Below are positions 1-53,748 of a stretch of DNA of 64,000 nt, piece after piece. This DNA comes from Gammaproteobacteria bacterium. Lineage in GTDB: Bacteria; Pseudomonadota; Gammaproteobacteria; GCA-001735895. The notes beneath the pieces are model-generated. The model was given only the letters and a program-made list of their open reading frames with translations, had not been told where the DNA came from and made no database searches. The stretch spans positions 1-64,000 of the forward strand of contig JAUVCH010000001.1 of assembly GCA_030595795.1 (NCBI GenBank), written 5' to 3'. How positions within the stretch are numbered: the stretch's first letter is position 1; every line of letters starts with the position of its first letter. The translations under genes were made by a program, and so were the position numbers.

Positions 1-192
1 GATTTCTTCAAGAATGGTATCGGCATTGTTTTCGATTAGCTGTAGGCCTGCTTCATCGAGTACTTCGAAATAGGGAATCTTGCGAGTAATATACGGTGCT
101 CTAGGTGCGCTGGCTGCCGCAGCCTCGGCACGACGGCCTTCGCGCCCGCCCCGGCCTCGACGCCCACGGGCTGGTCTCAGTATTTCGCTCAT
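1..192 (-). CDS. Trimethylamine methyltransferase (MttB) family protein, N-terminal part
   Basis: Only the first 64 codons lie in the window; the gene runs off the left edge. It opens with an Arg/Gly-rich stretch (RPARGRRGRGG) followed by APYITRKIPYFEVLDEAG and ADTILEEI, the usual start of MttB-family corrinoid methyltransferases. Members without pyrrolysine act on glycine betaine, proline betaine or related quaternary amines; which substrate cannot be read from this fragment. It is divergent from a GlxA-type AraC regulator about 230 bp away, an arrangement common for betaine-type regulation. A second, full-length family member lies at 29273-30814. Confidence 0.8.
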   Translation of the reverse strand, partial: MSEILRPARGRRGRGGREGRRAEAAAASAPRAPYITRKIPYFEVLDEAGLQLIENNADTILEEI

Positions 193-491: not shown

Positions 492-1388
492 GTGGTTGAT
501 TCCCTGCGTACCGCGAACCGACTGGCAGAGAGTAAATTATTCGAATGGTATTATTATTCCCCGGATAGCACGCCAGTGTCGGCCAGTTGCGGTATTACCG
601 TTCCAACCGAGCCGCTCTCTAAAGCGGTTGATCTGGAAACACTGGTGGTTTGTGCACCCAATAGCGCGCAGAATTTCAGTAACTCGAAAACACTCAAAAC
701 TCTACAAAACCTGGATAAGCAGGAAGTCAATCTTGGTAGTATTAGCTCGGGCAGCTTTGTACTGGCCAAAGCCGGGTTACTCGACAAAAGCCGCTGCACA
801 ATCCATTGGGAAAATATCCCTGTATTCAAAGAGTTATATCCGCACATCGAAGTCGCTTTCACGCTATACGAAATAAACCAGCGGCGGTTTACCTGTTCGG
901 GCGGCACGGCGGCACTCGACATGATGCTCAAACTCATCGAAAACCAGTATGGGCGTGCACTGGCGCAGGGAATTTCGCAGCAATTTCAACACGACCGTAT
1001 TCGGACCGATATCGATTCGCAGCAAATGGCCGATAGAATAGACCTGGCCATGAGCGCACCGAAATTAATCGATGTCATCAACCTAATGGAATCGAATATT
1101 GAAACGCCGTTGGCACTGCCAGCAATTGCTGCAAGCTGCAACTTGTCGTTACGTCAGATTGAAAGGCTGTTTCACAAATACCGAAGCGTAACGCCGAGCC
1201 AGTACTACCTGTCGATACGCCTGTCGCACGCGAAACAATTATTACTGAATACCAATCGCAGTGTGATCGACATATCGATCGCCACCGGTTTCGAAACACA
1301 GTCTTATTTTACGGCCTGCTATCGAAAGTTTTTTGGCAGTTCACCGCGTAGTCATCGTATTCAGGTAGCGACCGAGCGGAATGGTTAA
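492..1388 (+). CDS. GlxA family (GATase1-like/AraC) transcriptional regulator
   Basis: The N-terminal half is a DJ-1/PfpI-like ligand domain and the C-terminal about 100 residues are an AraC HTH pair (SLRQIERLFHKYRSVTPSQYY, then DISIATGFETQSYFTACYRKFF). GbdR, CdhR and ArgR of Pseudomonas share this architecture and respond to betaine, carnitine or arginine, which suits the setting. The position after SISSG that is often the nucleophile elbow has no Cys. The GTG start used here gives 298 aa but removes the first beta strand. The same frame is open back to base 366 and reads KIGILLIDGYPLIPFSC just upstream, with no ATG, GTG or TTG. The real start may be a rare codon such as ATC at 423, six bases after GAGG (413-416). 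Confidence 0.85.
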   Translation: MVDSLRTANRLAESKLFEWYYYSPDSTPVSASCGITVPTEPLSKAVDLETLVVCAPNSAQNFSNSKTLKTLQNLDKQEVNLGSISSGSFVLAKAGLLDKSRCTIHWENIPVFKELYPHIEVAFTLYEINQRRFTCSGGTAALDMMLKLIENQYGRALAQGISQQFQHDRIRTDIDSQQMADRIDLAMSAPKLIDVINLMESNIETPLALPAIAASCNLSLRQIERLFHKYRSVTPSQYYLSIRLSHAKQLLLNTNRSVIDISIATGFETQSYFTACYRKFFGSSPRSHRIQVATERNG

Positions 1389-1410: not shown

Positions 1411-2325
1411 TTATTTAAACTTCGATAAAAAACGCACACCCGTAGACCGTTCAACCTGCTCGCGGAACTTCGCCGCATTATCCCGTATCTCTTTGGTCTG
1501 CTTTTCCACCGAAACCTGAAACTCTGGGGATTTCAATAGCTCGATATATTTATCGATAACTTTGTCGGCCGGTTCGTAAGGTTGCTCGCAGGCGTGGTAA
1601 TACCTGAGATTGGCTTCTTTGGTAATCTGGTCGGCATTCGGTGTTCTATCGAGCAAATCAATCGCGATGTGCAAGCTGTAGTCGGCCGCTGTATGGCATC
1701 GGTGGGGCACTCCGGCGCGCAAATATAGAGCATCTCCGGGTTTCATAGTGATCTGCTGTAGCACAGGACCAAGCTGGTATTCGTTCTGGTTATCGTTACC
1801 CAGATAGCGTCTTTGCTGGGGTTCGAATATATCCCATATTTTTTTACCACCTAGTTGTATGACTAACACATCATCCGAATCGGCGTGTCCGCCGTAGGCT
1901 TCGCTTTGAGTCTGGGAGAAAAAAGCCACGCTGTTAGTCAGGCTGCAGGGTAAGGCTTCCTCAATTTTGGCGCAGAAGGCGTTGATATTCGGGTCGAGAA
2001 TATCCAGCCCTTCGAGCACCAGGGCCCCGCCTTTGCGTAACTCACGCTCGATGATATTTTTGTCCATAAATTTCAGGAAACGACGTTGTACGTTTTTTTC
2101 GATCACCGATGAATCGGTGGATACGTTACTTCCATCTGTTTTCAAATGTACCCATTCGGGTTTAAGCAGTGGGTTATTGAGGTGCTGCTGTAACTCACGA
2201 GTGGTAAAGAAACTGGGTTTACTGATCAGGCCAGGTTTGAAGGTGAACTCTTCGGGCGGATTGCTTCTCTGTTTTTTGAAGAAATCAAAGAGTAAAGCCA
2301 GGTCTTTGTGGAGTTTTTGATTCAT
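1411..2325 (-). CDS. JmjC/cupin-domain 2-oxoglutarate-dependent oxygenase-like protein
   Basis: 304 aa. The centre carries a cupin iron site of the JmjC type: GGHADSDDVLVIQL gives the HxD pair, followed by GGKKIWDIFEP, and GDALYLRAGVPHRC supplies the distal His. This pattern matches the Cupin_4/ROXA-like group, whose known members hydroxylate ribosomal proteins using Fe(II) and 2-oxoglutarate. The C-terminal third is helical and charged. A real hydroxylase is likely; its protein target is not known from the sequence. The ATG is preceded by GAGG. It is convergent with the GlxA regulator, 22 bp apart. Confidence 0.7.
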   Translation of the reverse strand: MNQKLHKDLALLFDFFKKQRSNPPEEFTFKPGLISKPSFFTTRELQQHLNNPLLKPEWVHLKTDGSNVSTDSSVIEKNVQRRFLKFMDKNIIERELRKGGALVLEGLDILDPNINAFCAKIEEALPCSLTNSVAFFSQTQSEAYGGHADSDDVLVIQLGGKKIWDIFEPQQRRYLGNDNQNEYQLGPVLQQITMKPGDALYLRAGVPHRCHTAADYSLHIAIDLLDRTPNADQITKEANLRYYHACEQPYEPADKVIDKYIELLKSPEFQVSVEKQTKEIRDNAAKFREQVERSTGVRFLSKFK

Positions 2326-2376: not shown

Positions 2377-2615
2377 CAAATTGATTCGGATAATAAATTC
2401 ACCGTGAAACGGCTGCGTCCTTGACAGGAGTTTTTCTGGGCCAACAATTTTATCAAGAAGGGATTGGGACTATCTGGTTTAACCCTGAACTGAATTCAAT
2501 TCTGGAGCCACTATTAATCGATTGCTTAATCACACTCGCCCAAACCCATCATGGCGACCATTTTTTACCCAGAAAAACACCTGTCAAGGATGAATTTATT
2601 ATCCGAATCAATTTG
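2377..2615. repeat. Long interrupted inverted repeat
   Basis: The left arm consists of 2377-2401 plus 2419-2440; the right arm is 2568-2615. The reverse complement of the right arm reads the same as the left arm (25 bp, then 22 bp with one mismatch), except that the left arm has a 17-bp insertion at 2402-2418 where the right arm has a single T. A 127-bp spacer separates the arms. The intergenic region 2326-2757 (432 bp) holds nothing else recognisable; an 89-codon open frame across the repeat has no protein-like character. It could be a MITE-like element or remains of an insertion. Confidence 0.75.
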
Positions 2616-2757: not shown

Positions 2758-4002
2758 ATGAGTAGACCTACCGTGACTGTGCTCGGTGCCGGGATTGTCG
2801 GCATTTGCTGTGCGATTGAATTACAGCGCTCGGGTTATCAGGTTGATTTAATCGACCGGAGTGAGCCTGCATCCGAAACTTCCTATGGCAATGCCGGTGT
2901 ATTTAGCCTGGGGTCGATTGCGCCGCTGGCTTCTCCGGCATTGTTACCGAGGTTGCCAGGTCTGATTGCTAACCGATACACAGATTTTCGCCTGCATTAT
3001 CCGCACTTCCTGCAGTTACTGCCCTGGTTGCTGGCTTTTTTAAAACGCTGTAATCGCGACACGTATTTCAGCGATGGAGAGATAATAAATCGGTTGACCG
3101 TGGCATCGGTAAAGCGGCATGAGGAGCTGATTAAACAAAGTGGAGCAGAGCACCTAACGCTTCGTAATGGCGGCTTACGCCTGTATCGGCATGAAAAAAC
3201 TTTCGAAAAGGATGCGTTGGAACGCGAACTGTTTCGGCGCTGCGAGGTGGAATACGAAGTATTGGACAGAGACGGCATTAAAAAACTGGAGCCCGATATA
3301 CACGACAGATTCGTTAAAGGAGTCTGGGTTAATCAGACGATATCGATTAAAGATCCGCAAGCGCTTTGTAAACATTATGTACGCTACTTTGAATCGTTAG
3401 GCGGGGAAATCAAACAACTGGAAGTGAAGGGCATTCAACAGGTCGGTAATAGCTGGCAACTGCAATGCGAGCCGATGGACTTGCAGACACCGAAACTGGT
3501 GGTCTGTCTCGGTGCCTGGACACCTGAATTGCTTAAGCCACTGGGTTATAAAAATGTCATTGCTATTGAGCGCGGTTATCACAGCATGCTGGCAGCTCAG
3601 GCTGGTAAGGTGTTGAACCGCCCGATTTTTGATGTCGACAGTAATTACGTCATGCTTCCCATGTCGGCGGGTTTGCGGGTGACTTCGGGTACGAACCTGA
3701 CTTATCGAGAAACACCACCAACCCCTGTACAAATTGAACAGGTGTTGCCGCGTGCCTACGAAGCTTTTCCGTTAGGCGAAAAATTAATCGATGAACCCTG
3801 GATGGGGCGTCGTCCGAGCACTGCCGATTCTAAGCCAATCATCGGCCCGGCACCCCGGCATCAAAATCTCTGGTTAGCCTACGCACACGCGCATATGGGG
3901 TTGGGCATGGGGCCGATTACGGGACAAATAATTGCCAGTCAGGTTGCAGGGAAGGAGCCGCCACTCGATGTTGCTGCCTGCTCGCCGAACCGGTATTTTT
4001 GA
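2758..4002 (+). CDS. FAD-dependent D-amino-acid dehydrogenase-like oxidoreductase (DadA family)
   Basis: 414 aa. The N-terminus has the Rossmann FAD motif VTVLGAGIVGICCAIELQ with the acidic end of strand 2 (LIDRS), followed by the DadA-typical SETSYGNAGVFS. The C-terminal WMGRRPSTADSKPIIGPAP and AHAHMGLGMGPITG are characteristic of the DAO/DadA fold. Such enzymes oxidise D-amino acids or secondary amines to imino acids at the membrane. It is first in a five-gene run to 7548, with 24 bp to the next gene. The cluster partners suggest a non-standard amino acid as substrate; this is inference. Confidence 0.8.
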   Translation: MSRPTVTVLGAGIVGICCAIELQRSGYQVDLIDRSEPASETSYGNAGVFSLGSIAPLASPALLPRLPGLIANRYTDFRLHYPHFLQLLPWLLAFLKRCNRDTYFSDGEIINRLTVASVKRHEELIKQSGAEHLTLRNGGLRLYRHEKTFEKDALERELFRRCEVEYEVLDRDGIKKLEPDIHDRFVKGVWVNQTISIKDPQALCKHYVRYFESLGGEIKQLEVKGIQQVGNSWQLQCEPMDLQTPKLVVCLGAWTPELLKPLGYKNVIAIERGYHSMLAAQAGKVLNRPIFDVDSNYVMLPMSAGLRVTSGTNLTYRETPPTPVQIEQVLPRAYEAFPLGEKLIDEPWMGRRPSTADSKPIIGPAPRHQNLWLAYAHAHMGLGMGPITGQIIASQVAGKEPPLDVAACSPNRYF

Positions 4003-4026
4003 TAAATTATACGATGAGCCATATCT

Positions 4027-5193
4027 ATGAATGAATTTTCCAAATTTGATCGTTGCTTAAATCGAGAAAACACTAACTCGGTAAAGCATGACCGCTATCG
4101 TGATAGCGAGATTTTACCAATGTGGGTAGCCGACATGGATTTTTCTGTCGCGCCTGAAATTACCGAGGCCATCAGGTCGCGCCTTGATCACGATGTATAC
4201 GGCTACACTCATGCTCCCGAAAGCCTAAACAAATTGATCGTTGAACGAATGCAGCGCCTGTACCAGTGGTCGATTAAACCCGAATGGCTAGTCTGGATAC
4301 CGGGTGTGGTAGCTGCTGTGAATATTGCCTGTCGTTCGATTGGTGATGCTAATTCACAAATGTTAAGCCCCGCCGTGGTTTATCCGTATATTGCCCACGC
4401 GGCGGAGTTGAGTAATCGATATTTACAGAAAGTACCCATGGTATCGCGACAGCAACGGTGGGTGATGGATAGCGAATGGCTGGCTGGCCGAAATGATGCT
4501 AACGACGAAATATTATTGCTTTGTAATCCGCATAATCCTGGTGGCAGTGTTTATAGCCGTGAAGAGCTGTCCGAATTGGCCTCTATTGCCGAAGCTCGGG
4601 ACTGGGTAGTGGTATCCGATGAAGTGCACTGCGATTTAATTTTTGAGCGGAATTTAAAACACATTCCTATCGCGTCGTTAAACCCGACTATTGAGCAACA
4701 AAGCATCACACTCATGGCAGCGAGCAAGACTTTCAACCTGGCGGGACTTGGTTGTTCGTTTGCGATCATCCCGAATCAACAGTTGCGACGAAACTTTAGG
4801 CAGGCGAGCACAGGCATTGTTTCGCATGTTAATCTGTTTGGTTATATTTCGACCCAGGCGGCTTATCAGCAAGGCGAAAAATGGCACCAACAATTACTCG
4901 ACTATTTGCGTGGAAACCGCGATTATCTGCGGGAAGAAATTAACCAGATTCGAGGTTTAAAGCTGGACCCGGTCGAGGCCACTTACCTTGCCTGGATCGA
5001 TGTGTCCGGATTAGGCCTTGATAATCCACATCGGTTTTTTGAACAGGCGGGTGTCGGCATGTCTCCGGGAAGAGAATTTGGTGATAATGGTTTTATGCGT
5101 TTAAACTTCGGCTGCTCGTTAACTACTTTAAAAGAGGCTGTGTTGCGTATGCGAACGGCTGTTGACAATCATTGGGACCAAAAAAATGTTTAA
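4027..5193 (+). CDS. PatB/MalY-type PLP-dependent aminotransferase/C-S lyase
   Basis: 388 aa, fold type I class II. Diagnostic segments are LPMWVADMDF near the N-terminus, YGYTHAPESL, LLLCNPHNPGG, the PLP phenol-binding SDEVHCDLIF, and the Schiff-base lysine in MAASKTFNLAGLGCS. PatB/MalY proteins cleave cystathionine or other S-conjugates; relatives in amino-acid clusters act as aminotransferases. The end overlaps the next gene by 8 bp, so translation is probably coupled. Confidence 0.8.
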   Translation: MNEFSKFDRCLNRENTNSVKHDRYRDSEILPMWVADMDFSVAPEITEAIRSRLDHDVYGYTHAPESLNKLIVERMQRLYQWSIKPEWLVWIPGVVAAVNIACRSIGDANSQMLSPAVVYPYIAHAAELSNRYLQKVPMVSRQQRWVMDSEWLAGRNDANDEILLLCNPHNPGGSVYSREELSELASIAEARDWVVVSDEVHCDLIFERNLKHIPIASLNPTIEQQSITLMAASKTFNLAGLGCSFAIIPNQQLRRNFRQASTGIVSHVNLFGYISTQAAYQQGEKWHQQLLDYLRGNRDYLREEINQIRGLKLDPVEATYLAWIDVSGLGLDNPHRFFEQAGVGMSPGREFGDNGFMRLNFGCSLTTLKEAVLRMRTAVDNHWDQKNV

Positions 5194-5947
5194 TCAAGCC
5201 ATTGTACGTAGACCGGGTGAAAGTCTGGTAAATGGGATCACTACCGCAGGACTGGGGCAACCCGATTATCAGCTGGCGTTAAAACAACACGACGCTTATA
5301 TCCAGGCGCTGGAAAGCTGTGGTCTCACAGTCACGGTGATGGAAGCCGAAGAAGATTATCCGGATGGTATGTTTGTCGAAGATGTCGCCTTACTCAAGGA
5401 ACGATGCGCCATTGTCACACGCCCCGGAGCCGACGCGCGCAAGGGCGAAACCGAAAGTATGGCGCGGCAGCTAGCTGAGTTTTTTGATCAAATCCATACC
5501 GTCGAAGCACCGGGCACAGTTGATGCGGGCGACATTAAAATGGCGGGCAAGCATTTCTATATCGGCCTGTCAGAGCGCACGAATGCTGCTGGCGCTGAAC
5601 AGGTGATCGGGTTTTTACGTGAGCATGGATACGACGGTTCCACCATTATGATTAGCCAGGGTCTACACCTGAAATCATCAGTGTCCTATCTCGAAAATAA
5701 CAAAATAGTCGTCACCGGCGAACTGTGTAGTAAGCCAGAACTGGCACGTTTCAAGGCCATTGAAATAGAGCCCGAAGATGCTTATTCGGCAAACAGCGTC
5801 TGGGTGAATGATCGTGTGCTAGTGCCAGCGGGTTATCCTGTTACCAGTGAAAAAATCAAAGCCGCTGGGTATGAAATTATCGAGCTCGATGTTTCCGAAT
5901 TTAAAAAGCTCGACGGTGGCTTGAGTTGCCTGTCGCTGAGGTTTTAA
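5186..5947 (+). CDS. Dimethylarginine dimethylaminohydrolase (DDAH)-like hydrolase
   Basis: 253 aa from the ATG at 5186, the usual DDAH length; a TTG at 5162 would add eight unlikely residues. Family motifs are visible: DGMFVEDVAL (Asp/Glu binding loop), DAGDIKMAGKHFYIG, the catalytic His in QGLHLKSSVSYLENN, and the nucleophilic Cys close to the C-terminus in GGLSCLSLRF. DDAH hydrolyses N-methylated arginines to citrulline plus methylamine or dimethylamine. The small C-terminus after the Cys is normal. In this cluster the substrate might be another N-substituted guanidine. Confidence 0.8.
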   Translation: MFNQAIVRRPGESLVNGITTAGLGQPDYQLALKQHDAYIQALESCGLTVTVMEAEEDYPDGMFVEDVALLKERCAIVTRPGADARKGETESMARQLAEFFDQIHTVEAPGTVDAGDIKMAGKHFYIGLSERTNAAGAEQVIGFLREHGYDGSTIMISQGLHLKSSVSYLENNKIVVTGELCSKPELARFKAIEIEPEDAYSANSVWVNDRVLVPAGYPVTSEKIKAAGYEIIELDVSEFKKLDGGLSCLSLRF

Positions 5948-5953
5948 TCATTT

Positions 5954-6412
5954 ATGGAAATAAAACCAATCGTAGAACTGGATGATGATGTTGATGCTTT
6001 GATTCAGATGTCACGGGATTATCAGGCGAGTCTGTATCCGAGTGAAAGCATCAATCAGGATGATCCAGAATATTTGACCAATGGTGGCATGTATTTTATC
6101 GGAGCCTATCAGAGCAAAAAATTGTGCGGTATTGGTGGTGTGAAGATAATGCAGGATACTCCCGACTATGGGGAAATCAAAAACCTATTTGTCGATCCTG
6201 ATTGCCGAGGACGTGGCGTTTCGAAGATTATCATGAGCTCACTGGAAAACCATTTAATCAAAAATAAAATTGGCCTTTGTCGGTTGGAAACGGGTATCAG
6301 TCAACCTGAGTCCGTTGGTCTGTATCACAGTCTTGGCTATCAGGATTGTGATGCCTATGGTTCTTATCAGGCTGACCCCATGAGCATATTCATGGAGAGA
6401 GAAATCAAATGA
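5954..6412 (+). CDS. GNAT family N-acetyltransferase
   Basis: 152 aa. The acetyl-CoA binding motif A is clear: EIKNLFVDPDCRGRGVSKIIM, followed by the typical LCRLETGISQPESVGLYHSLGY beta4-alpha4 segment. It overlaps the next gene at ATGA (6409-6412). Next to a deacylase of the aspartoacylase family it may acetylate a pathway intermediate that the deacylase later frees; the sequence alone does not show the substrate. Confidence 0.8.
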   Translation: MEIKPIVELDDDVDALIQMSRDYQASLYPSESINQDDPEYLTNGGMYFIGAYQSKKLCGIGGVKIMQDTPDYGEIKNLFVDPDCRGRGVSKIIMSSLENHLIKNKIGLCRLETGISQPESVGLYHSLGYQDCDAYGSYQADPMSIFMEREIK

Positions 6413-7548
6413 GTTTCGAAAAGATAAGCAAAACATTAGTAGGCGACTCTCCCGGGAAAACCACCGAGCTGACTTATTTTCGTATCGGCCCGGCTAACGC
6501 GGAGAAGAAGGTCTATTTGCATGCCGCGCTGCATGCCGATGAGCAGCCTGGAATTATGGTTTTGCATCATATGCTCGAACTTTTAAAAGCAGCGGATCAG
6601 GCCGGTGAATTAAGCGCACAATTTGTTTTATTCCCGATGGTGAACCCTTTGGGTATGGGGGATATTGAATTCGGCCAGCATCAGGGTCGTTATGATCGCG
6701 ACACCGGGATCAATCATAATCGACAGTGGCCCGATCTTTTTTCGGCGGTCGATCAAAGCCTCGGTGAGTGGCTTGGTTCGGACGAGAAAGAAAATATTCG
6801 TCTGGTGCGTGAAGCGGTATCGAACTGGCTGCAAGACTATCCGCAGGTGAAAGCACGCGACCAATGGCGTCATGCTGTGATGAGTGAAGCCTACGATGCC
6901 GATTATGTGTTCGACTTACATTGCGACGATGAATCGTTGCTCTATATTTACTCCTTGCCCCAGCAACGGGAAACTATGCGGGTGTTGGCCAACTACACAG
7001 GCGCAGCAGCGACTATGCTCGCCGAAGACGGCGGTGGAAACTCCTTCGACGAAGTCTGGCCTGCGATTTGGCTAAAACTGGCAAAAGAATATCCTGACAA
7101 GGCAATCCCCATGATGCGGGCATCCTGTACGCTGGAGTATCGCGGACAGATCGATACCTTCGACGCGTTGAACTCAAAGGACGCTGAAAATCTTTACGGG
7201 TATTTTCAGGCCGAAGGTTTGATTGGCGGTGAAGCGAAAGGCAGCCCAATTGAAGTCCCGGTCGCTACCGATTTGAAGGCTATGGAGATAATTCGTGCAG
7301 AGCACGCCGGTTTATTAGCTTATTGTGTTGAGCTTGGTGAAGAAGTAGCTAAGGGCCAGAAGATTGCTGATTTGATACATCTCGATGGTGAGCAGGCATT
7401 CCTGGGCCGAACACCTGTTATTGCGGGTACCTCTGGAATTATTTTATCGCGTAATACTAATAAATATGTTTGGCGGGGTGCTGGTATTACCAAGATTGTT
7501 GGTAGTGATATTTTGGAGTCTCGTGGGGAGTTTTTGCTGGAGGATTAG
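6409..7548 (+). CDS. Succinylglutamate desuccinylase/aspartoacylase family zinc deacylase
   Basis: 379 aa. The zinc site shows as LHADEQPG near residue 45 (His and Glu) and the later DLHCD; MVNPLGMGDIEFGQHQGRYDRDTGINHNRQWPDL is the substrate-binding region of the AstE/AspA/DoeB group. The C-terminal part carries the beta-rich lid (ELGEEVAKGQKIADLI, resembling a biotinyl-like barrel). Known relatives remove N-acyl groups from aspartate, glutamate or N-acetyl-diaminobutyrate. Last gene of the cluster; the next gene, tex, converges 10 bp downstream. Confidence 0.8.
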   Translation: MSFEKISKTLVGDSPGKTTELTYFRIGPANAEKKVYLHAALHADEQPGIMVLHHMLELLKAADQAGELSAQFVLFPMVNPLGMGDIEFGQHQGRYDRDTGINHNRQWPDLFSAVDQSLGEWLGSDEKENIRLVREAVSNWLQDYPQVKARDQWRHAVMSEAYDADYVFDLHCDDESLLYIYSLPQQRETMRVLANYTGAAATMLAEDGGGNSFDEVWPAIWLKLAKEYPDKAIPMMRASCTLEYRGQIDTFDALNSKDAENLYGYFQAEGLIGGEAKGSPIEVPVATDLKAMEIIRAEHAGLLAYCVELGEEVAKGQKIADLIHLDGEQAFLGRTPVIAGTSGIILSRNTNKYVWRGAGITKIVGSDILESRGEFLLED

Positions 7549-37317: not shown

Positions 37318-38571
37318 CTAGTGCAACCAGGGATAGGGGCCTATACCCGCATCGTCGATTAATGCGCCACTTTTGAATCGATCCAGCGCGAAGGGTTGCA
37401 ATAGCTGAGGTAATTGTTCGGTTGCGAGTAGTTCGGCCATGCTCCAGCCAACTGCCGGAGTAGCCTTGAAACCGGCATAGCCCCAGCCACAATTTAGATA
37501 TAAATTTTCGACCGGTGATCTGCCCACGATGGCGTTGCCATCCATCGGAATGTCGGCAGTGCCAGACCAGTGTCGCATTAATCTTAAGCGCGAGATGAAA
37601 GGGAACATTTGTGTGGCTCGTGCCAGAGTATCTTCAATACTGGAAAAAGAACCCCGCCGCGCTAACGATTCATAACCATCGGTAGCGCCCCCCATGACTA
37701 ATTCGCCCTTATCGGTTTGACTGATGTAAGCGAGACCCGCGTTGTAATTAACAACCGAATCAAGTATTGGTTTAACTGGCTCCGAGACGAAGGCCTGCAC
37801 ATTGATCAAATCCATTGGCAATTTGATATCTACCATGCTGGCTAACTTTGAAGATGCACTAGCGGCGGATATCAAAACCTTATTGCACTCGATATTTCCG
37901 CGGGTAGTGCTGATCCCTGTAATGTGGTTATCTTTGGCTGTGAATCCCGTCACAGGGCAATTTTGTAAGATGTGAACTCCTGCTGTACTCGCTGAACGGG
38001 CAAATCCCCAGGCCACCGCATCGTGCCGAACCACGCCGCCATCTGGTTGGTATAAGGCACCACAAACCGGGAAGCGGGCATTATCACTGACATCAATACC
38101 CGGAACTCGATCGGCAACTTGCTGGCTCGAAAGGATTTCCACATTGGCACCACCGAGACGCATCGCATTAGCACGCGAGAGAAAATGTTCGAGTTCGCCA
38201 TCGGAATGCGCCAGATCGATATAGCCTCGGGGCGAATACATCAGGTTGAAATTTAATTCCTGACTCAACGCCTGCCACAATTGCAGCGCAAAATCCTTCA
38301 ATTTAAAACTGGCGTTCAACAAATAATCCGAGCGCACTATTGTAGTATTCCGCCCGGTGTTACCGCCGCCTATCCAGCCGCTGTCGATGACCAGTACATC
38401 GGTAATTTGATGGTTTTTTGCGAGATAATGCGCGGTGGCGAGACCGTGTCCGCCAGCGCCGACAATGATAATGTCATAGCGAGATTTCGGTTCGATATCA
38501 GCCGCGATATTGGGCCAGTGTTTGTGGCCGCTGAAGGAATTTTTGAGTAGAGAAAAGCCTGAGTACTTCAT
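37318..38571 (-). CDS. soxB: Sarcosine oxidase beta subunit family protein
   Basis: 417 aa, normal length. FAD motif IIIVGAGGHGLATAHYLAKNHQITDVLVIDSGWIGGGNTGRNTTIVRSDYL is typical of SoxB, as are ALYQPDGGVVRHDAVAWGFAR, LAYISQTDKGELVMGGATDGYES and LYLNCGWGYAGFKATPAVGWSMAELLAT. It carries the amine-oxidising active site. Four-base ATGA overlap with the upstream decarboxylase gene. Confidence 0.92.
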   Translation of the reverse strand: MKYSGFSLLKNSFSGHKHWPNIAADIEPKSRYDIIIVGAGGHGLATAHYLAKNHQITDVLVIDSGWIGGGNTGRNTTIVRSDYLLNASFKLKDFALQLWQALSQELNFNLMYSPRGYIDLAHSDGELEHFLSRANAMRLGGANVEILSSQQVADRVPGIDVSDNARFPVCGALYQPDGGVVRHDAVAWGFARSASTAGVHILQNCPVTGFTAKDNHITGISTTRGNIECNKVLISAASASSKLASMVDIKLPMDLINVQAFVSEPVKPILDSVVNYNAGLAYISQTDKGELVMGGATDGYESLARRGSFSSIEDTLARATQMFPFISRLRLMRHWSGTADIPMDGNAIVGRSPVENLYLNCGWGYAGFKATPAVGWSMAELLATEQLPQLLQPFALDRFKSGALIDDAGIGPYPWLH

Positions 38572-40172
38572 GCACTCAGCCAGGCATCGTTTTCCATCGC
38601 TAGAATAATGCTCGGACCAGTGTGCTGAAATGCATCGTCCATGGCCTGCTTGAAAGACGCCTCGCTATCAACCTGTACACCGGGGCAGCCGAAAGCATCG
38701 GCCAGCTTCAAAAAGTCGGGTGCTTTTGGGTTGACACCAATTTCGGGGATGCCGCGTTTTACCATGCCATCGCGAATCATCGCGTAGCTGTGGTTGTGCC
38801 AGATGATAATCGGGATGGAGAGTTCCTCCTCGACTGCCGTAGCTAGTTCATTTACCGTGAACATGAAGCCGCCGTCACCGACCAGCGCGACGACTTTGCG
38901 CTCGGGCAGTGCCAGTTTGGCACCGATGGCATCGGGTAGTGCACAACCGAGAGTGCCGAATCCGGCCGGATAAAACCAGGTTCGTGGCAGCAGGATTTTC
39001 ATCGCGGCGGTACCGGTATAAACCAGTTGCGCGATATCGCCCATGATTATCGCATCGTCGGGTAAAATCTGACGTAGCGCATTGAGCAGGGTAATGTGCT
39101 GTCTTTCTACCGACGTATAGTCTTCGAATTGTTGGGCTTTGACTGCTTCGAGCTGCGACAGGATGCTGGCTTTTGCTGTTTCGATACTTCTATCTGCCAG
39201 TGCATCGACCAGTTGAGCGCAGGCCGAGCGAGCATCACCCTGTATGGCAATGGTGGCCGGGAAGGCATCATTAAATCTTGTAGGATCGATATCGATTCGG
39301 ATAACCTTGCCGTTCACTGGTAGGTCGTAAATGAAACTGTCGGCTTCGGCGAGTTCAGTGCCTATCGCGAGCACGACTTCGGCGCTGGCCAGGTGAGCCT
39401 GAATGGCAGGGCTAATGACACCGCCACCGAGGCTTAACGGGTTGGTATCGGCAACAATACCTTTGCCCGCGTTTGAGGCGATAACGCCGACATTCAGTCG
39501 CTCGGCGAGCTGTGTTATCTCTTCACTAGCGTGCTGTGCGCCACCGCCCACCATGATCACCGTTTGCCTGGAAGTAGAAAGCAAATCGGCCGCAGCGGCG
39601 ATGGGTTCCGCCGCCGGGATAGGTAATGCCGGGGTTTGCTGTGGTGCCCAGTTGACGTTAACCGGCATTTCCATTACATCGATTGGAATAGCGATGTGTA
39701 CCGGGCGCGGGCGTCGTGAACGAAATACGGTAAAGGCTTGCGCGATAAGCTCGGGTATTTCCGATGGGTCGTGAACCATCGTACTGAATGCTGTGATTGG
39801 TCGGGTAATCGCGCACAGGTCGGTAGTCTCGTGTAATCGCCCCCAGCCCTTGCCGAGTGACGGGCTGTCGTTTGCGCTCGAAATCACCAGCATCGGAATC
39901 GAATCGGCGTAGGCCTGCCCGATGCCGGTGGCGGCGTTGGTAACACCGGGGCCGGTGATAATCGTGCAAACGCCTGGATTGCCAGTGACTCTGGCATAGC
40001 CATCGGCCATGAAGCTCGCGCCCTGTTCGTTGCGCGGTGTTACCGCTCGCACGTTACTTTTTTCGATGCCCCGGTAAAGCTCCAGAGTGTGTTCACCTGG
40101 TATGCCAAATACAGTGGTTACCCCGTAGGCTTCGAGTAAATGCATTAAGGCTTCGCCACATGATTTGGTCAT
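38568..40172 (-). CDS. ThDP-dependent decarboxylase, 5-guanidino-2-oxopentanoate decarboxylase (AruI)-like
   Basis: 534 aa of the acetolactate synthase fold. TPP Glu lies in TPRNEQGASFMADGYARVTG, and the Mg-ThDP motif in VALVGDGGFMFTVNELATAVEEELSIPIIIWHNHS. It lacks a regulatory subunit partner, so it is not IlvB. Proteins beginning CGEALMHLLEAYGVTTVFGIPGEH are often assigned to AruI, which decarboxylates the 2-oxo acid of arginine to 4-guanidinobutyraldehyde. The divergent aminotransferase at 40384 and nearby guanidine hydrolases agree with that. First gene of an eight-gene minus-strand operon. Confidence 0.75.
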   Translation of the reverse strand: MTKSCGEALMHLLEAYGVTTVFGIPGEHTLELYRGIEKSNVRAVTPRNEQGASFMADGYARVTGNPGVCTIITGPGVTNAATGIGQAYADSIPMLVISSANDSPSLGKGWGRLHETTDLCAITRPITAFSTMVHDPSEIPELIAQAFTVFRSRRPRPVHIAIPIDVMEMPVNVNWAPQQTPALPIPAAEPIAAAADLLSTSRQTVIMVGGGAQHASEEITQLAERLNVGVIASNAGKGIVADTNPLSLGGGVISPAIQAHLASAEVVLAIGTELAEADSFIYDLPVNGKVIRIDIDPTRFNDAFPATIAIQGDARSACAQLVDALADRSIETAKASILSQLEAVKAQQFEDYTSVERQHITLLNALRQILPDDAIIMGDIAQLVYTGTAAMKILLPRTWFYPAGFGTLGCALPDAIGAKLALPERKVVALVGDGGFMFTVNELATAVEEELSIPIIIWHNHSYAMIRDGMVKRGIPEIGVNPKAPDFLKLADAFGCPGVQVDSEASFKQAMDDAFQHTGPSIILAMENDAWLSA

Positions 40173-42935: not shown

Positions 42936-43826
42936 ATGAATGAGTCGAACAACGATGATGCAGTTCAATGTGATATCAGGGCACAAACTGGCGTGTTAAC
43001 CGATGTCCTGTTAGGGAAACCCGATCATTTTCGCTGGGTGCCACTTAATTCGATTTCTGCTGTCAATCAAGCAAATCAGGAGCAGTTGGGTTATCGCTTT
43101 GATAAAGAAAAAGCCATGCGACAACACCAGCATATGGTCGAAGTCTACGAAGCTAACGGGGTTTCCTGCCATTTTGTGGAAGCCGATGAGGGCCTCCCCA
43201 GCAGTGTCTTTACCCGTGATTCCAGTTTTATGACACCCTGGGGCGCGGTTATCACCAGCATACAGACTCCGCCACGACGGCAAGACTATTCTGTCGTCTC
43301 CGAGTTTTATCACAATGCCGGAATCCCCATCTGGAAATGGGTGACTGCCGATCACTTCGAGGGTGGAGACTTCGTCATCATCAAACCGGGCGTCGCTTTA
43401 CTGGGTTGGGCAGGTGACCGATCTACTCAGGTTGGCGCCGAACAGGTTGCTAGCTGGTTGGAGGGCAAGGGTTGGGAGGCTTTTGTCGTTCCGATCCCAC
43501 CGCAGTTTGTCCATATGGATGCGGTAGTGGTAATGCTGGAAGAAAATCTGGCTCTGGTATGCGAAGACGCTTTGCCGTCTTACGCAATCGACTGGCTCGA
43601 CCAGCATCATATCGAACGGATTGTTGTACCCTATGCGGACTGCGTGAAGCTCGGTGGCAATGTCGTAAGCCTGGGTGACATGCGGGTATTATCCATGAGC
43701 CACAATGTAAATATTAATGCGCGTCTGAAAGCGGAAGGCTTTGAAGTTACCGCAGTTGACTACGACATGTTCGCGATCGGTGGCGGTGGTGTTCACTGCT
43801 CCTGCCACGAACTCAGACGAGAGTAA
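42936..43826 (+). CDS. Amidinotransferase/arginine deiminase superfamily hydrolase
   Basis: 296 aa of the guanidino-group modifying fold. Motifs: VFTRDSSFMTPWGAVI, DHFEGGDFVIIKPGVALLGW (acidic catalytic residues), PPQFVHMDAVVVML (catalytic His) and GGGGVHCSCHELRRE with the C-terminal Cys nucleophile. The same plan is found at 52828-53748, and the two are clearly homologous to each other. Exact substrate is unknown; a guanidino acid or agmatine-like compound is likely. Last gene of the plus-strand unit. Confidence 0.8.
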   Translation: MNESNNDDAVQCDIRAQTGVLTDVLLGKPDHFRWVPLNSISAVNQANQEQLGYRFDKEKAMRQHQHMVEVYEANGVSCHFVEADEGLPSSVFTRDSSFMTPWGAVITSIQTPPRRQDYSVVSEFYHNAGIPIWKWVTADHFEGGDFVIIKPGVALLGWAGDRSTQVGAEQVASWLEGKGWEAFVVPIPPQFVHMDAVVVMLEENLALVCEDALPSYAIDWLDQHHIERIVVPYADCVKLGGNVVSLGDMRVLSMSHNVNINARLKAEGFEVTAVDYDMFAIGGGGVHCSCHELRRE

Positions 43827-52827: not shown

Positions 52828-53748
52828 ATGAATTCCGAATTTAAATTACGTGCAAGGAATGAGGGTGGTGGTACGCCAGCTCTCGATAACTGGGGCGCCG
52901 ATTGTGAATATGGCGTATTAAGAGACATCCTGTTAGGTCCTGCAGACCATTATCAGTGGTTAGAGACCAGTTCGGTTTCGAAGAAAAGTATTCGTCGCAA
53001 TTATCAATTCGATGCAAAGATCGCTCAGTCTCAACATGCCGAAATGGTTTCAGCTTACGAGTCTGCAGGCGTAAAAGTACACATGCACGCCGCCGACCCA
53101 GAATTGCCTTATCAGATTTTTGCCCGGGATTCGTCGGTTATGACGCCATTCGGGGCGATTATTACCAGCATGGCTAACTGGTGGCGTCGTGGCGAGAACT
53201 TTCGCGCCATCGAAACCTATGAGCGCCTGGGTATTCCGATTTATGATTATGTTACCGCAGGCACTTTCGAAGGTGGTGATTTCAATGTCGTCGAACCGGG
53301 CACGGTATTAATTGGCTGGGAAGGCGACGAGGGTCGTAGCCAACAGCAGTCCGCCGTGCAGTTGAAGAACTGGTTTGAGGCCGAAGGTTGGGAAGTCATG
53401 CTCACTGACCTTGATCCTTTCTATGTTCATATCGACTTAATGGTCGTTATGTTAGCGCCCAAGCTTGCGGCTGTGTGCCTGGAGTCAACCGACGCCGACG
53501 TGGTCGACTGGCTCAAGTCGAAACAAATCGAAATCATCAGCGTGCCGTTTAAAGACACGCTTGATCTTGGCTGTAATGTCGTGGCACTGGGTAATGATCG
53601 GGTGTTACTGCCAGAGAAAAGTCTGGTGCTCAAGGAGAAAATCAAAGCTCATGGTTTAGAGATTTACGACCCGGACGTGTCGATGATTACGCCCGGTGGT
53701 GGTGGAGTGCATTGTATGTGTCAGGCTTTGCGACGGGATCCGGGCTAA
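52828..53748 (+). CDS. Amidinotransferase/arginine deiminase superfamily hydrolase (paralogue)
   Basis: 306 aa. Same plan as the protein at 42936-43826: IFARDSSVMTPFGAII, GTFEGGDFNVVEPGTVLIGW, DPFYVHIDLMVVMLAPKL (His) and the C-terminal GGGGVHCMCQALRRD with the Cys nucleophile. The catalytic triad of guanidine hydrolases is complete. It is divergent from the polyamine unit across the TTGTGATCACAA site, so agmatine or another guanidino-polyamine is a possible substrate. Confidence 0.8.
   Translation: MNSEFKLRARNEGGGTPALDNWGADCEYGVLRDILLGPADHYQWLETSSVSKKSIRRNYQFDAKIAQSQHAEMVSAYESAGVKVHMHAADPELPYQIFARDSSVMTPFGAIITSMANWWRRGENFRAIETYERLGIPIYDYVTAGTFEGGDFNVVEPGTVLIGWEGDEGRSQQQSAVQLKNWFEAEGWEVMLTDLDPFYVHIDLMVVMLAPKLAAVCLESTDADVVDWLKSKQIEIISVPFKDTLDLGCNVVALGNDRVLLPEKSLVLKEKIKAHGLEIYDPDVSMITPGGGGVHCMCQALRRDPG

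Follow-up and report, generated by a model that had tools for sequence, protein, structure and literature searches.

The question raised by this locus is what holds together five adjacent genes for an amino-acid oxidase, a PatB-family pyridoxal phosphate (PLP) enzyme, a DDAH-like hydrolase, a GNAT acetyltransferase and a zinc deacylase. The cluster occupies positions 2758–7548 of the plus strand of the window, the 64,000-nt stretch of contig JAUVCH010000001.1 that was analyzed here, from a gammaproteobacterium of the GCA-001735895 lineage (Table 1). An earlier note on this DNA described the five genes as overlapping or closely packed, which is what we observed for the five open reading frames (ORFs): 24 bp separate the oxidase from PatB (4002 to 4027), the end of PatB (5193) overlaps the DDAH ATG (5186) by 8 bp, 6 bp separate DDAH from GNAT (5947 to 5954), and the end of GNAT (6412) overlaps the deacylase start (6409) by 4 bp. 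The ORF list also offers a TTG start for DDAH at 5162; the ATG was taken because the alignment with Pseudomonas aeruginosa DDAH begins there. The families named at that time (oxidase, PLP C-S lyase, DDAH, GNAT and deacylase) were upheld by profile matches. In our judgment, the chances are about even that PatB, DDAH and GNAT form a methylarginine-utilization module within a methylated-amine locus that has a GATase1-AraC regulator, with the oxidase and the arginine-type deacylase as lineage-specific extras.

Conservation of the PatB-DDAH-GNAT Order

Gene order was compared across 95 genomes including the window's own, 31 of which belonged to its genus, using gene maps from a greedy longest-ORF caller that sometimes picked antisense ORFs. 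DDAH genes were found in 18 of the 95 genomes at E ≤ 1e-20. The window's DDAH class comprised nine genes in eight genus genomes, the other eight genes being 62–77% identical to that of the window. A second class, 38–40% identical to it, was present in nine genus genomes, and one genome outside the genus carried a DDAH at 50%. The order PatB-DDAH-GNAT was kept in every locus of the window's class (nine of nine, in eight genomes, window included). Because this order was retained while PatB identity to the window ranged from 56 to 80%, the trio cannot reasonably be put down to chance. No PatB or GNAT of the window's kind was found at the nine loci of the second class, where up to 1.5 kb was read per side.

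The outer genes behaved differently. The oxidase was part of the DDAH cluster in two of the nine loci (the window and G011) and the deacylase in three (these two and G027); their clustering is confined to few of these genomes. The earlier note had held that genes scattered in relatives would mark the clustering as accidental, and such scattering was found for the oxidase and deacylase and not for PatB, DDAH and GNAT. A few of the absences may be assembly gaps, for example in G012, where DDAH was not found and a 79% deacylase lies on a contig that breaks off at this point, Tex being further along, and in G024, where a truncated 69% PatB sits at a contig end with no DDAH.

In two wider samples, DDAH was found in 7 of 369 genomes at E ≤ 1e-60, a count that covers the window's own genome and one more from its genus, and in 16 of 398 at E ≤ 1e-40 (own included). 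Outside the genus, the surroundings of 23 DDAH loci were compared, 14 of them through 1.5-kb flanks only. Near these loci, the window's oxidase, GNAT and deacylase had no match at E ≤ 1e-6, and the sole PatB match was a 21% identical aminotransferase on a Ruegeria megaplasmid. Among six scanned proteins neighboring DDAH in G253 and G404, an adenylate kinase and a phosphatase domain were all that could be named. Relatives of the GNAT itself occurred outside the genus in 3 of the 369 genomes (G133, G253 and G370), with no DDAH near them in the stretch read. A literature search with narrow terms returned no evident paper on a DDAH-PatB-GNAT cluster.

The DDAH-Like Hydrolase and Its Probable Substrate

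The predicted hydrolase aligned end to end with P. aeruginosa DDAH (PaDDAH, whose numbering is used here) and retained D60, E65, D66, R85, R132, H162 and C249. Cys249, His162 and an acidic third residue are presumably the catalytic set of the P. aeruginosa enzyme. Both Cys249 and His162 were kept in all 22 aligned DDAH rows, and residue 114 was Glu or Asp in all 22; Asp was the residue throughout the class of the window and in five DDAHs outside it. Among the named residues, the window protein differed from PaDDAH by Asp for Glu114 and Ile for Leu18. The residues around the site that differed were I18, D114, E131 and S166, and the same four were found in L039, an extra-genus DDAH without an adjacent PatB. 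Dimethylargininase (NF045658) was the best-matching family, at 343.5 bits; as this is below the cut-off of 450, we call the protein DDAH-like.

These likenesses suggest methylarginine hydrolysis as the core step. The earlier note had proposed an N-substituted arginine degraded through one five-gene pathway; the substrate class fits the DDAH residues and the presence of a deacylase relative in a P. aeruginosa arginine-transport operon, and the single pathway was not supported. In the ddaR-ddaH-antiporter locus of P. aeruginosa, the DDAH has the same catalytic Cys and His and would be expected to catalyze the same reaction, whereas its neighbors are DdaR and a basic amino acid/polyamine antiporter instead of PatB, GNAT and a GATase1-AraC regulator. 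The arginine cluster of the Ruegeria pomeroyi megaplasmid resembles the window in that the gene for a DDAH-superfamily enzyme is accompanied by those for a PLP enzyme and an oxidoreductase. Its genes encode an aminotransferase, a 5-guanidino-2-oxopentanoate decarboxylase, a DDAH-like protein and an FAD oxidoreductase; the DDAH-like protein is 38% identical to that of the window and the PLP enzyme only 23%.

Elsewhere in the window, two more amidinohydrolase-like genes of the DDAH superfamily were seen at 42936–43826 and 52828–53748, both scoring far under any dimethylargininase cut-off. At 37318–40172, a SoxB-type oxidase gene adjoins one for 5-guanidino-2-oxopentanoate decarboxylase (NF005712, 607 bits; cut-off 500), so that the window contains another set of arginine-type catabolic genes.

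PatB and GNAT

The PLP enzyme passed the TIGR04350 subfamily cut-off of 340. It aligned to 5z0q (its best structure match, 374 bits), 4dgt and 8juj, with the lysine motif (S/T)K(S/T)FN(I/L)AG kept, and also matched the Bacillus subtilis-type PatB 6qp3, which places it among the PatB C-S beta-lyases. We take 5z0q, whose structure record reads "Aminotransferase, class I and II", to be OvoB. The OvoA profile (TIGR04344) gave no match over its cut-off in the 31 genus genomes and weaker, mostly C-terminal matches in 30 of them; among 14 control genomes, it matched three, one over the cut-off. An ovothiol role is therefore unlikely and was set aside.

The RGxG acetyl-CoA loop of GNAT was invariant in all eight aligned rows. 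Its AlphaFold model had a predicted local distance difference test (pLDDT) score of 85.8 and matched 3lod best; as the structural matches were generic, no substrate was assigned.

Two Versions of the PatB Locus

PatB was present in 30 of the 31 genus genomes, with or without DDAH. A SoxB-like oxidase gene that we call OX5 (e.g., L023:7595–8938) was found in 27 of the 31, with full-length copies 82–92% identical. Of the 23 genus genomes without a DDAH of the window's class, 18 had PatB and OX5 as direct neighbors; in the other five, one or both were missing or on cut contigs. DDAH and GNAT lay between PatB and OX5 in four of the nine DDAH loci (L023, L025, L026 and L028), and OX5 was on a different contig in the window genome, G011, G027 and G008. 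OX5 relatives of 60–76% identity occur in other families, and at least 4 of the 12 extra-genus regions read (L114, L115, L123 and L124) have OX5 beside glutamine synthetase-type-III/Mgs-like genes. OX5 is possibly an unrecognized methylamine-forming oxidase. A PatB tree was built from 22 rows, 21 from a subset of the genus genomes plus one outgroup, with a stop in the L077 row read as X. PatB sequences from genomes with and without DDAH fell on the two sides of one 100/100 branch (20 labeled rows).

The regulator had GbdR and ArgR as its best families and relatives. GbdR is a quaternary-amine (choline/betaine) regulator and ArgR an arginine regulator. The window protein missed the GbdR cut-off (NF052371), to which a different regulator of the genus (L097:2219–3313) came close at 470 bits. 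The regulator lay within ~5 kb of the trio in seven of the nine loci, and an MttB-family gene was near the trio in five of the eight relative loci, in addition to the cut gene of the window; the MTTB protein of L022 scored 738 bits on PF06253. There were no transporter genes within 2758–7548, and an amino-acid ATP-binding cassette (ABC) transporter flanked the cluster in two of nine loci (L023 and L024).

At L026:4923–8362 (G018), genes for a 4-hydroxyphenylpyruvate dioxygenase and a fumarylacetoacetase-like protein lie between the regulator and PatB, and part of a similar fumarylacetoacetase-like gene precedes PatB in L027.

Putative Methylamine Assimilation Genes

The window's own genome contains GMAS-, MgsA-, MgsB- and MgsC-like genes in one cluster, 93, 84, 90 and 94% identical to those of L100, named from gene order and weak family matches under cut-off. 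Given these genes, methylamine could be assimilated. A close MgsC-like protein (at least 92% identical to that of L100) was found in 25 of the 31 genus genomes.

The Oxidase and Deacylase

The oxidase belongs to the DAO family and fell short of the DadA cut-off (NF001933, 383 bits). Its AlphaFold model was discarded (mean pLDDT 47.5). Oxidase relatives also occur near PatB without DDAH: in all five regions of this kind that were read (L093–L097), a relative 51–52% identical (59% over the part seen in L096) precedes PatB, and a choline-dehydrogenase-like gene separates the two. In four of the five, the oxidase is itself preceded by the regulator; the L096 contig starts inside the oxidase.

Deacylase genes were found in 20 of the 31 genus genomes (E ≤ 1e-30). 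At the same threshold, five of the eight genomes with DDAH and GNAT had no homologue (G008, G010, G014, G016 and G018; completeness 90–99%). A homologue 60–66% identical was present in 17 genus genomes, G012 included, and was never beside DDAH in the 10 regions read. Three annotated deacylase relatives were looked at, out of 49 plasmid records matched. The P. aeruginosa relative, which we take to be AotO, is an M14 protein 33% identical to the window's deacylase over 369 columns (3e-65); its gene is flanked by ABC permease genes and aotP, and argR is the next gene. Of the other two relatives, one belongs to an ABC operon of Paracoccus and one is encoded close to the arginine deiminase operon of Haematobacter. 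The aot-argR operon of P. aeruginosa thus resembles the window in its deacylase homologue and in an ArgR related to the window's regulator, and differs in having an amino-acid ABC transporter, whereas the window cluster is without an arginine ABC transporter or Ast enzymes.

A 231-aa ORF directly precedes the 60–66% deacylase in 7 of the 10 regions (L084, L087–L090, L092 and L098), a short-chain dehydrogenase/reductase where tested (L088). ABC-transporter ATPase genes are near six of these seven, with SBP_bac_1 where tested (L090). Such regions are a second setting for the deacylase family.

A Proposed Route for Methylarginines

In the methylarginine-utilization module that we propose, the DDAH-like enzyme would hydrolyze free Nw-methyl- or Nw,Nw-dimethylarginine to citrulline and methylamine or dimethylamine, as its homology and residues suggest. 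The methylarginines might come from protein turnover in other organisms, which is a guess. Methylamine would then pass to gamma-glutamylmethylamide and N-methylglutamate by way of the GMAS/MgsABC-like genes at another place in the genome, if their naming and this flux are right. Judging from its context, the aot-type deacylase may release acylated arginine-type amino acids as a side input outside any cycle, and the oxidase, from its family, may convert a D- or N-substituted amino acid to a keto acid. We would guess that GNAT acetylates the product or a surplus amino acid and that PatB removes a beta-substituted amino acid taken up from the same diet; what ties both to DDAH is the conserved order. 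The locus looks like a local variant of known arginine and methylated-amine metabolism rather than a five-step pathway. If this is right, methylarginine use would have a second genetic setting, linked to the metabolism of methylated amines instead of to DdaR and a permease, and free methylarginines would be a nitrogen and methylamine source for the genus. It would also offer a test case of one locus in two versions, with and without DDAH-GNAT, within one genus.

Weighing the Alternatives

Several observations count against this proposal. In five of the nine extra-genus DDAH loci whose neighbors were read (L029, L079, L080, L140 and L143), an amino-acid permease or antiporter adjoins DDAH, and a window-type GNAT or close PatB lies beside DDAH in none of the nine, the remaining four being L020 (Desulfobacteraceae), L081, L082 and L145. 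The Asp for Glu114 and the missed dimethylargininase cut-off belong here, and a C-S lyase is without an obvious step in methylarginine breakdown. The close MgsC-like protein is present in only five of the eight genomes with DDAH; G010, G014 and G016 have matches of 51–53% or weaker only. The regulator tree gave the same split by DDAH as PatB (100/99) and the OX5 tree failed to resolve it, and therefore co-inheritance with the cluster is indistinguishable from simple species descent; shared ancestry alone could be the source of the PatB split. The main rival is a mosaic regulon, which we regard as possible but clearly more tentative: independent scavenging enzymes gathered behind one quaternary-amine-type regulator, co-expressed and acting on separate substrates. 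The presence of the oxidase and of the deacylase varies independently of DDAH, and PatB is found across the genus regardless of it. PatB could even serve as the genus's cystathionine beta-lyase, a methionine housekeeping role that is conceivable because proteobacterial MetC was over its cut-off in none of the 31 genus genomes (weaker matches in all 31, MetB/MetZ-like in our reading). Against a set of unrelated enzymes stands the finding of a PatB before and a GNAT after each DDAH of the window's class, with gene overlap in the window, which suggests some joint use.

The earlier note's linear pathway, in which the amino group freed from an N-substituted arginine would receive from GNAT an acetyl group that the deacylase later removes, as in ectoine degradation, appears unlikely, despite the tight operon in the window and the occurrence of the deacylase family in an arginine-transport operon. 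The ectoine enzymes DoeB/EutE share the AstE/AspA superfamily and the idea of an N-acetyl intermediate, but the window's deacylase was rejected as DoeB (TIGR02994, 19.6 bits against a cut-off of 402.7). That GNAT is kept without a deacylase in five of eight genomes speaks against an obligatory acetylation/deacetylation cycle, and neither the 60–66% deacylases, never adjoining DDAH, nor the oxidase, clustered at two of nine loci, fit one five-gene pathway. Both G133 and G253 do encode a GNAT relative (39% in G133) ~4–5 kb from a deacylase relative (34–35%), and in G133 the gene for a lysine/arginine/ornithine ABC binding protein is close to that of the deacylase; however, these genomes represent one genus, and several genes intervene. 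We consider it quite improbable that a guanidino amino acid with a cleavable beta-substituent (e.g., a methylated arginine-cysteine-type conjugate) is processed by an undescribed pathway made up of PatB, the DDAH-like protein and GNAT, in which PatB and DDAH would act on the same molecule under the quaternary-amine-type regulator. It is likewise very doubtful that the DDAH-like enzyme has a different guanidino substrate, such as a compound linked to a cysteine-type moiety; PatB would then have a direct step. The constant PatB-DDAH pairing and the four site residues unlike PaDDAH would suit such a substrate, but the seven residues listed above are kept and L039 shares all four differences with no PatB beside it. 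Accidental clustering without any functional link would explain the poor conservation of the outer genes, is contradicted for the trio by its constant order across diverged PatB sequences, and is thus highly improbable.

Neighboring Features of the Window

Upstream of the cluster, a JmjC-type cupin gene lies between the regulator and the oxidase, and homologues were found at four related loci (L025, L093, L095 and L096). In the closest relative (L021), the oxidase begins 23 bp after the regulator with no JmjC gene between. A long inverted repeat, which may be like a miniature inverted-repeat transposable element or an insertion relic, separates the JmjC gene from the oxidase. The Tex gene lies on the opposite strand 3' of the five-gene cluster.

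Table 1. Features at the start of the window, with the matches on which each name is based.
Feature	Position	Strand	Evidence and remarks
MttB-family (trimethylamine methyltransferase-like) gene, N-terminal part, cut by window start	1–190	-	blastx 93% over 30 aa to MTTB of L022; divergent from regulator
GATase1-AraC regulator (GbdR/ArgR type)	492–1388	+	NF052371 (GbdR) 308.4 bits, cut-off 480; 33% to P. aeruginosa ArgR
JmjC-type cupin	1411–2325	-	PF08007 60.5 bits; between regulator and operon
Long imperfect inverted repeat, 5' of oxidase gene	2377–2615		Arms 25 nt at 100% and 31 nt at 87%; DNA fold z = -9.1
DadA-like flavin adenine dinucleotide (FAD) amino-acid oxidase/dehydrogenase (accessory)	2758–4002	+	PF01266 (DAO) 192 bits; NF001933 (DadA) 180.8 bits
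PatB-family fold-type-I PLP enzyme (C-S beta-lyase family)	4027–5193	+	TIGR04350 418.9 bits
DDAH-like putative Nw-methylarginine hydrolase	5186–5947	+	52% identity to P. aeruginosa DdaH (254 alignment columns)
GNAT acetyltransferase, YsnE/3lod-like	5954–6412	+	PF13673/PF00583
AstE/AspA-fold zinc deacylase	6409–7548	+	PF24827 (AstE/AspA catalytic domain); related to M14 protein of P. aeruginosa aot operon

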